From Terriglobia bacterium (GTDB taxonomy: Bacteria; Acidobacteriota; Terriglobia; Terriglobales; Acidobacteriaceae), in NCBI GenBank assembly GCA_020072645.1, contig JAIQGK010000015.1:62001-126000 (forward strand): a stretch of DNA of 64,000 nt. Direction: 5' to 3'. Position 1 is the first letter of the stretch, and each line of letters opens with the position of its first letter. The translations under genes and the position numbers were made by a program. Of the stretch, positions 34,490 through 36,186 are shown piece after piece. The notes beneath the pieces are model-generated. The model was not told where the DNA came from. It saw nothing but the letters and a program-made list of their open reading frames with translations, and did no database searches.

Positions 34490-35464
34490 CTAGCCCGCCG
34501 GTGCAGGACGGCCCGCCACTCGCCGCCTCAATTGGACCATTACGGTGGCAACCAGCACGGCCACAATTCCTACGATCTGCAACGCCCGCAGCGTTTCACC
34601 CACAAAAAGCACCGCAAAAACAATGGCGAACACCGGCTCCAGGCAACTGGTGATAACGGCGCGTGTGGGATCAAGGTATTTCAACCCGCTGAGATAAAGC
34701 ATGTAAGGCAGCACCATGGAGAGACAGGCAAAGACAAACAGAAATCCCCATTGCCGTCCGCTGAAATCCTGTGCCATCAGCTTCCACGGAGGATCAACCA
34801 CGGTCCACAAGACCGCCGCGCCCAGCAGCAGATAAAACATGACGGTGAACTGGTGGTTTCTCGTCACCAGCCCTTGTGCTGCGACGTTATAAAAAGCGTA
34901 GCCAAACGACGCCAGCAAAGCGGACGACACGGCAATCAAATTGAATTTTACGCCGGTCTGGAAGACCCCAATCGCAAGGGCGGTTCCGATCATCGCTACC
35001 AGCGTTGCCGCGGTACGCTGAACTGTTGCCCGTTCCCTGCCCCGCGCGACCATGTAAATCAATACCCAGAGCGGCGCGGTGTATTGGATCGTAATCGCCA
35101 GTGAGACAGTCGATTTCTTGACGGCAAAATAATAGAAAAAATTGGAGCAGGCCACGCCCAGTGTGCCGACAAGCGCGCACAACATCAGGTCACGCCGAGT
35201 GATGGAAAAGATACGGCGGCCAAATCGCAGCAAGAGAATGGGACCAAAAACCAGGACGGTAAAAGTGGTCCGGGCTTGCGTGAGCACTACAGGTGAAATC
35301 AAGGCATGGCCGGCAAAGAGGCTGCCGTTAAAAATCGCCTTGCCAACTACAGCGGCGGCTCCCCAGCAGAACGTTGCCGTGGCCACAAAGAAATAGCCCC
35401 GCCATGGATGTTGATGCTCCGGCGCGGGGCTTATTGACTGTTGGGCAGCGGACTCACTCGGCAA
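34490..35464 (-). CDS. EamA/DMT-family membrane transporter
   Basis: The 324-residue product has ten predicted membrane helices in two EamA halves. The motif-like FCWGAAAVVGKAIF and YLDPTRAVITSCLEPVFAIV with closing FVGETLRALQIVGIVAVL are typical of the drug/metabolite transporter superfamily. The start is placed at TTG 35464, which overlaps the selenoprotein gene by 11 bases; the frame is open upstream to 35563 but that stretch is occupied by the glutaredoxin in another frame. The substrate is unknown. The overlap suggests translation coupled to the glutaredoxin. Confidence 0.85.
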   Translation of the reverse strand: MPSESAAQQSISPAPEHQHPWRGYFFVATATFCWGAAAVVGKAIFNGSLFAGHALISPVVLTQARTTFTVLVFGPILLLRFGRRIFSITRRDLMLCALVGTLGVACSNFFYYFAVKKSTVSLAITIQYTAPLWVLIYMVARGRERATVQRTAATLVAMIGTALAIGVFQTGVKFNLIAVSSALLASFGYAFYNVAAQGLVTRNHQFTVMFYLLLGAAVLWTVVDPPWKLMAQDFSGRQWGFLFVFACLSMVLPYMLYLSGLKYLDPTRAVITSCLEPVFAIVFAVLFVGETLRALQIVGIVAVLVATVMVQLRRRVAGRPAPAG

Positions 35465-35693
35465 GCATCGCGTCCAGGCGCTCAGGATCAAAGCCGACCA
35501 TGACTTTTTCTCCGACGACGATGGTTGGCGTGGAACGGCTCTTATAGGTGCGGACCAGCTCAAAAACCGCCTGCTGGTCAGAACTAACGTCTTTCACTTG
35601 AAACTCAATACCTTTCTCCGAAAGGTAGGACTCAGCCCATGAGCAGGGCGGTCAACCCGGCTGGCTGTACACCACAACTTTCTTTTGCGACAT
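35454..35693 (-). CDS. Glutaredoxin-like selenoprotein (in-frame TGA read as selenocysteine)
   Basis: Translated from ATG 35693, the frame gives 79 residues with TGA at codon 14 (35652-35654). Reading TGA as selenocysteine gives VVVYSQPG-U-PPC-SWAESYL, so the usual CPPC redox motif becomes UPPC (U14, C17). The rest is an ordinary glutaredoxin: KGIEFQVKDV, RSTPTIVVG and VGFDPERLDAML are family hallmarks, all after the TGA in the same frame. A SECIS-like hairpin starts 24 bases after the TGA (35609-35627). Unless TGA is decoded the active site is lost. It lies 58 bases downstream of an OsmC gene and overlaps the EamA gene, so it is probably part of a thiol-peroxide stress operon. A sequence error or pseudogene is the main alternative. 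Confidence 0.85.
35609..35627 (-). promoter_or_regulatory. Bacterial SECIS-like hairpin
   Basis: On the minus strand TACCTTT and AAAGGTA (7 perfect pairs) enclose loop CGGAG. The loop starts 31 bases after the TGA, and its second base is G, which fits the bacterial SECIS pattern (apical loop 16-37 bases from UGA, G at loop position 1 or 2). It lies inside the coding sequence, as bacterial SECIS elements do. Confidence 0.75.
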
Positions 35694-35751
35694 GAAAGGA
35701 ACTTCCCCCCTTTGTGTGGATTAGATTCTTTCCGCTACCGCAATGTTTCTT

Positions 35752-36186
35752 TTATTTCTTTGCCGGAGCAAGCGTTTCCGCACCTGAAAGATGCACTTCA
35801 GTAACGATCTTTGCCGTACATTTCAGCATCGCAGAGACGCCGCAATACTTTTCTTCAGACAGCCTCACCGCGTCTTCCACCGCCTTGCGTGAAACCTGCC
35901 CGGAAACTGTATAGATAAGCTTGATCGAAGTATAGACCGTGGGCGCTTCCGTCGCGCGAACTGCCTCGGCCTTCACGTGCACGCCGACGAATGGCTCACG
36001 CTTCTTGCGCAGGATGCTCACGACATCGGTGGCGGTGCAAGCGCACAGGCCCATCAGGACCATTTCCATGGGACCTGCAGCAGTGTTGCGCTGGCGGTCG
36101 GAATCGATCACGATGGCATGGCCGCTGCTGGCATTGGCGACAAATCTCTCGCCATCTGTCCACGTTACCTGCGCTTCAACGTTCAT
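35752..36186 (-). CDS. OsmC/YhfA-type thiol peroxidase
   Basis: The 144-residue product has the OsmC fold with both redox Cys: one in GLCACTATD (about residue 48-50) and one in EEKYCGVSAML (about residue 115). PMEMVLMGLCACTATDVVSIL is typical of the YhfA subgroup. Family members reduce organic hydroperoxides. Some OsmC-like proteins elsewhere are selenoproteins; here both positions are ordinary Cys. It is the first gene of a probable OsmC - selenoglutaredoxin - EamA operon. Confidence 0.9.
   Translation of the reverse strand: MNVEAQVTWTDGERFVANASSGHAIVIDSDRQRNTAAGPMEMVLMGLCACTATDVVSILRKKREPFVGVHVKAEAVRATEAPTVYTSIKLIYTVSGQVSRKAVEDAVRLSEEKYCGVSAMLKCTAKIVTEVHLSGAETLAPAKK

Follow-up and report, generated by a model that had tools for sequence, protein, structure and literature searches.

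A putative YruB-type glutaredoxin-like selenoprotein gene between osmC and eamA in a Terriglobia bacterium

Described selenocysteine glutaredoxins and the family placement of grx

Excerpts of three published sources list selenocysteine (Sec)-containing glutaredoxin as a selenoprotein family (PMC13188914 Table 1; PMC1794560; PMC9312934). An excerpt of a further report describes cGrx1 of Clostridium oremlandii as natively a selenoprotein and gives its motif as U(or C)PXC; attack comes from the first residue, resolution from the second Cys, and glutathione completes the cycle by reducing the protein (PMC7642778). In the deep-Sep paper, as excerpted, a single acidobacterium appears, credited with three known selenoproteins (PMC12013277). 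The UxxC class of Sec-glutaredoxins is already known, and the acidobacterial gene reported here, grx, is a further example of it.

We analyzed grx within a 64-kb window (the whole stretch of 64,000 nucleotides under study, C15:62001-126000) from a Terriglobia bacterium whose genome assembly comprises 6.4 Mb and is 99% complete. The grx protein shares with WP_010943784.1 and cGrx1 a PF00462 UxxC site with Sec first, a resolving Cys and the glutaredoxin fold (excerpts of PMC13188914 and PMC7642778), the likeness to WP_010943784.1 being drawn solely from its table entry (PMC13188914 Table 1, seen as an excerpt). Unlike cGrx1, it belongs to another phylum, shows 34-35% identity to that protein in the fold alignment, and is encoded in the gene order osmC-grx-eamA. 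This acidobacterial gene group is not named in the literature we found, and we do not claim its absence from print. We take WP_010943784.1 to be a protein of Geobacter sulfurreducens.

Table 1. Coordinates of the features at the grx locus, numbered from the first base of the window.
Feature	Position	Strand	Basis
OsmC-family gene, upstream of grx	35752-36186	-	PF02566, 56.8 bits; match in 39/49 UPPC loci
Possible Shine-Dalgarno sequence, G-rich, 11 bases 5′ of the grx ATG	35705-35710	-	by eye
grx, 79-residue YruB-type glutaredoxin-like putative selenoprotein	35454-35693	-	ATG 35693, terminal stop TGA 35456-35454; profile matches
In-frame TGA, residue 14, motif UPPC, read as Sec	35652-35654	-	codon conserved in family; selA/selB/selC/selD in genome
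SECIS hairpin (stem of 8 pairs, GGA loop), 24 bases 3′ of the UGA	35609-35627	-	covariation in 49 UPPC loci, Cys control, synonymous null
EamA-family transporter gene, downstream	34490-35464	-	PF00892; match in 47/49 UPPC loci; putative start TTG 35464

Translation of the minus strand from 35693 to 35454 reads MSQKKVVVYSQPG*PPCSWAE...LDAMLAE* (asterisks mark stop codons). This frame of 79 codons plus stop contains a single internal TGA (35654-35652) at the first Cys of a CPPC motif, exactly where the first-pass annotation had placed it. For scoring, the TGA was written as Cys for the profile programs. The protein matched PF00462 at 51.6 bits (cut-off 22.9), which assigns it to the glutaredoxin family, and barely exceeded the cut-off of the YruB family TIGR02196 (88.6 versus 88.55 bits), although it carries Sec in place of the first Cys. 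Members of TIGR02196 are presumably Cys proteins. The Uxx-star families, glutaredoxin-like (seleno)protein families by name, gave scores below their curated cut-offs (NF041212, 55.6 versus 66 bits; NF041211, 41.5 versus 100; NF041114, 34.7 versus 72), so that the grx protein falls outside NF041212. An alignment of 21 of the 30 loci from the 81-genome search described below (alignment A1) consisted entirely of members matching both TIGR02196 and NF041212 at E ≤0.001. YruB-type glutaredoxin-like is the best-scoring class for the grx protein. The early description of the product as a normal glutaredoxin holds for the PF00462 match, but was too strong given this YruB-type best score and the lack of a TIGR01380 match.

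The AlphaFold2 model built on A1 was confident (pLDDT 91, pTM 0.78), and both the predicted model and its fold matches place the protein in the glutaredoxin fold. The best solved matches by sequence and fold were BC3987 (3zij, 3zit) and cGrx1 (7c10). The closest of these, BC3987, is a thioredoxin-like protein, which we take to be a Cys protein without Sec. The host genome also contains a second, stop-free glutaredoxin-family gene (L001, contig C1:80053-80226).

Conservation of the UGA codon and the selenocysteine pathway

At E 1e-8, a grx homologue was found in 30 of 81 genomes (the host's own and its relatives), and in 25 of the 30 the codon for residue 14 is TGA. A family-level survey at E 1e-15 recovered homologues in 73 of 398 genomes; 48 carry TGA, and the other 25 have no internal stop. 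The aligned residue was read in 23 of the latter 25, G195 and G247 being excluded as not fetched from their own contigs, and proved to be Cys in 22 and Ser in one (G245, locus L099). The in-frame UGA is therefore aligned to a conserved redox Cys for which Cys homologues are known, and the proposed search for both Cys and Sec homologues yielded both (48 UGA, 22 Cys and 1 Ser among the family genomes read). We kept 80 named loci, some from records titled Clostridia, Chloroflexi, Rokubacteria and Nitrospinae; the site is a stop (UGA as Sec) in 53 of them, Cys in 26 and Ser in one. Acidobacteriota supply the nearest named relatives of the grx protein (records titled Acidobacteriaceae, Terriglobia and Candidatus Angelobacter). 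Ser replaces Sec/Cys in a homologue adjoining eamA (L099:1370-1600) and also in L136, and G245, the genome of L099, keeps a SelA match.

In the bacterial Sec pathway, SelD makes selenophosphate, SelA turns Ser-tRNA-Sec into Sec-tRNA, and SelB brings the Sec-tRNA to the ribosome. The first-pass annotation implied that selA, selB and selC should be found in this genome, and their absence, which would have spoken against a selenoprotein, was looked for. All are present, together with selD: SelA matched at E 4e-131, SelB at 387.9 bits over positions 1-578 of 581, the tRNA-Sec (selC; anticodon TCA) at 73.9 bits, over the Rfam cut-off, and SelD over its cut-off. The host thus has the complete selA+selB+selC+selD set of selenoprotein-encoding bacteria.

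Presence of selA (E 1e-20) followed the UGA, with matches in 46 of 48 UGA genomes versus 9 of 25 non-UGA genomes (Fisher P 4.3e-8, genome lists compiled by hand). This co-occurrence is not independent of ancestry, because 13 of 17 Cys rows form one separate clade in the tree described below. The two UGA genomes lacking a SelA match (G158 and G219) each contain SelB as well as tRNA-Sec, so an assembly gap likely accounts for the missing SelA.

Two side observations concern the Sec genes themselves. The host selD is itself UGA-coded (L023:1531-1533, contig C12), and just downstream of its UGA lies a hairpin whose GGC loop is closed by C-G; the grx hairpin has loop GGA, also closed by C-G, and the distance from UGA to hairpin differs between the two genes. 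Such a common apical loop type in two UGA genes of one genome is what a single SelB would be expected to require. In addition, the 3′ end of the tRNA-Sec gene on contig C11 is part of a 29-base repeat (97%; L004:1355-1383 and 1494-1522), whose two copies lie 139 bases apart and which resembles the remnant of an integration at selC.

The SECIS-like hairpin, Sec/Cys switching and rival readings

The hairpin noticed at first inspection 24 bases after the TGA was recovered, with 7 pairs if the loop is taken as CGGAG or 8 if it is taken as GGA. Folding of the single sequence was weak (z -1.8; 12 of 200 shuffles folded equally well or better), and a synonymous-codon test on the window's grx gene alone gave P 0.034. 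It is the comparative evidence (covariation, Cys control and synonymous null), not the single-sequence fold, that places the hairpin far beyond chance. We assembled 49 UPPC loci (47 distinct rows) and used as a Cys control the 17 of 23 non-UGA loci that were fetched (missed: L085, L091, L094, L095, L097 and L099). Four loci with UMFC/UIFC-type sites (L051, L052, L053 and L083) were left out of the hairpin set, having a different active site and no evident counterpart of the helix. These four represent a second Sec-glutaredoxin type, with a U(M/I)FC active site, on a separate tree branch.

Across the 49 UPPC loci, 94.1% of the cells of the 8-pair helix were paired, with double-sided changes in 5 of 8 pairs (28 such cells) and a covariation score of 0.221. 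None of 500 shuffles attained the observed score, pairing, double-sided pairs or double-sided cells; for the fifth measure, which counts further pair types, 47 of 500 did. Sliding the partner strand by 1 to 3 bases reduced pairing to 43-71%. The outer pairs are weakest, pair 29-45 failing in 17 of 47 rows. The 17 Cys control rows showed 47.1% pairing, which is the shuffle level.

Because the hairpin sits in coding sequence, random synonymous codons of the same proteins were used as the null. Observed inner pairs in the UPPC rows averaged 5.94 of 6 (six in 46 rows, five in three) versus 3.37 (sd 0.13) expected, and the Cys rows gave 2.24 versus 2.22 expected. Folded by itself, the 19-base hairpin had a median energy of -8.5 kcal/mol in the 49 UPPC loci versus -0.6 in the 17 Cys loci. 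In 26-base windows, another fold was best in 5 of 49 rows (L041, L056, L058, L078 and L081); taken alone, the 19-base stretch forms the hairpin in the first four and is weak in the UPPC locus L081 (-1.6 kcal/mol).

Under the bSECISearch model, a SECIS hairpin lies just downstream of the UGA and has G in its first two loop positions. The grx hairpin lies just 3′ of the UGA, and its first two loop positions are GG in 49/49 UPPC rows, so the SECIS-like pattern first recognized by inspection is borne out by covariation, loop sequence and an excess over the synonymous null. Codon 15 starts with C in all 49 UPPC rows, giving UGAC. An Rfam scan of the grx locus returned no relevant family and one chance match.

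To place the Sec/Cys states, we masked the column that carries them and built a tree (70 rows, 67 columns); its support is limited because the protein is short. Apart from the separate Cys clade, four Cys rows (L042, L049, L054 and L055) fall among UGA rows. The Sec/Cys label needs four changes on this tree, two of them forced by well-supported branches; L042 and L049 sit on long branches, and their positions are uncertain. L054 and L055 share a genus with UGA rows L031, L056 and L058, and keep the eamA neighbor with no osmC match. Their 19-base stretch folds at -0.5 and -0.6 kcal/mol versus -8.5, -8.0 and -8.0 in those three UGA rows. This pattern is best read as a change from Sec to Cys followed by decay of the hairpin, the direction being our inference. 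Both genomes keep SelA, tRNA-Sec and SelB matches, the SelB match in G163 being partial and below the cut-off. Altogether, nine non-UGA genomes retain selA. L042, a Cys locus adjoining osmC and eamA, has a hairpin that still folds at -7.4 kcal/mol, consistent with a recent change or with chance. The 49 UPPC loci with a covarying hairpin, together with the few nested Cys rows, provide a natural series for the codon constraint imposed by SECIS, and one equally suited to the study of hairpin decay after Sec loss.

By simple counting, dN/dS after the UGA was 0.04-0.16 in 10 of 11 hand-picked pairs, four of which include the window's own gene; the eleventh was saturated at synonymous sites. The part upstream of the UGA comprises 10 codons, too small for dN/dS by itself. 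Judged from these substitutions, the codons 3′ of the UGA are under purifying selection.

Against this background, three other accounts of the TGA can be weighed. A decaying pseudogene, or an error turning a Cys codon into TGA, would take a single base change, and Cys homologues exist; yet the TGA is also found in 48 of 73 family genomes with a homologue, selection is purifying 3′ of it, the hairpin covaries, and UGA and hairpin are conserved together across genera, which leaves this account a negligible probability. In particular, the suspicion that re-sequencing might reveal TGC or TGT is excluded in practice, because TGA occupies the same codon in assemblies of many genera. Also barely credible is a true stop, by which a 13-residue leader would be followed by a 47-residue protein from GTG 35597. 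A GTG-started frame (35597-35454) does exist, but its product would have no active site and would also lack the first strand and first helix of the predicted fold, and the stretch from UGA to GTG is conserved both as protein and as hairpin.

Slightly less improbable, though still very unlikely, is that a variant tRNA outside the Sec pathway reads the UGA and inserts a standard amino acid, Cys or another. A selC-like tRNA-Cys charged by CysRS is described in an excerpt of PMC7609411, and the Cys homologues indicate that Cys is tolerated at residue 14. However, the genome encodes SelA, SelB and SelD, its tRNA-Sec exceeds the Rfam cut-off, and UGA homologues track selA; the tRNA finder covered the 64-kb window and 11 loci, beyond which a second UGA-reading tRNA may exist. 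Decoding of the grx UGA as Sec, giving a glutaredoxin-like thiol/selenol oxidoreductase, is on comparative grounds almost certainly the correct reading, and the conserved UGA, the hairpin and the Sec genes all support the original suggestion of a probable selenoprotein with a UPPC site. The actual insertion of Sec, the catalytic cycle, the substrate and the reductant are inferred.

Neighboring genes and proposed mechanism

OsmC upstream and EamA downstream, the latter overlapping the 3′ end of grx, were identified as previously annotated (PF02566 and PF00892). Searches to about 1.5 kb on each side found at least one of the two in 48 of 49 UPPC loci (separate counts in Table 1), and these counts are lower bounds because some loci are cut by contig ends. 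The three genes share the same orientation in all rows listed. In the Cys control, OsmC was matched in 1 of 17 loci and EamA in 3 of 17, and the four UMFC/UIFC-type loci had no osmC or eamA match. An extra gene between grx and eamA was considered and rejected, since eamA directly adjoins grx in the six loci whose ORFs were examined. The idea of an operon for thiol or peroxide stress stands as regards the conserved gene order osmC-grx-eamA, but not as an established function; the placement beside osmC and eamA suggests a role for grx in peroxide or thiol stress.

In the window, eamA is in the +1 frame, and its nearest in-frame candidate start is TTG 35464, 8 bases ahead of the first base of the grx stop. 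Placement of the eamA frame succeeded in 31 of 52 loci and gave +1 in 27 of the 31; an ATG, GTG or TTG in the eamA frame precedes the grx stop in 23 of the 31. Such gene overlap often accompanies translational coupling. Because the nearest eamA starts in the window are TTG codons inside grx, ribosomes halted at the UGA without Sec-tRNA would miss them. If eamA translation were coupled to that of grx, Sec supply could set the expression of the EamA exporter plus the redoxin, although a selenium-gated operon of this kind is an unlikely proposition at present.

In the proposed mechanism, SelD would provide selenophosphate and SelA would convert Ser-tRNA-Sec(UCA) to Sec-tRNA. SelB would deliver this Sec-tRNA and be retained at the UGA by the hairpin, which lies 24 bases 3′ and has a GG-containing apical loop. 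The UPPC site would then act as a dithiol-type redox center, in which Sec14 would attack a disulfide or other oxidized substrate and Cys17 would resolve the intermediate. By analogy with cGrx1, the first two steps of its cycle, attack and resolution, most likely apply to the grx protein as well. A search of the host genome by the TIGR01380 route found no prokaryotic glutathione synthetase (GshB); together with the YruB-type best score, this makes glutathione dependence doubtful. Thioredoxin reductase or another thiol may instead serve as the reductant.

A gene finder treating the UGA as a stop would end the protein at residue 13 or begin it past the active site, so that in many genomes of this group grx-type genes may go undetected or carry a wrong annotation. 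A plasmid search returned 65 records, all below 60% identity; among the eight matches listed, two had no feature, one was annotated as a glutaredoxin domain and five as NrdH.
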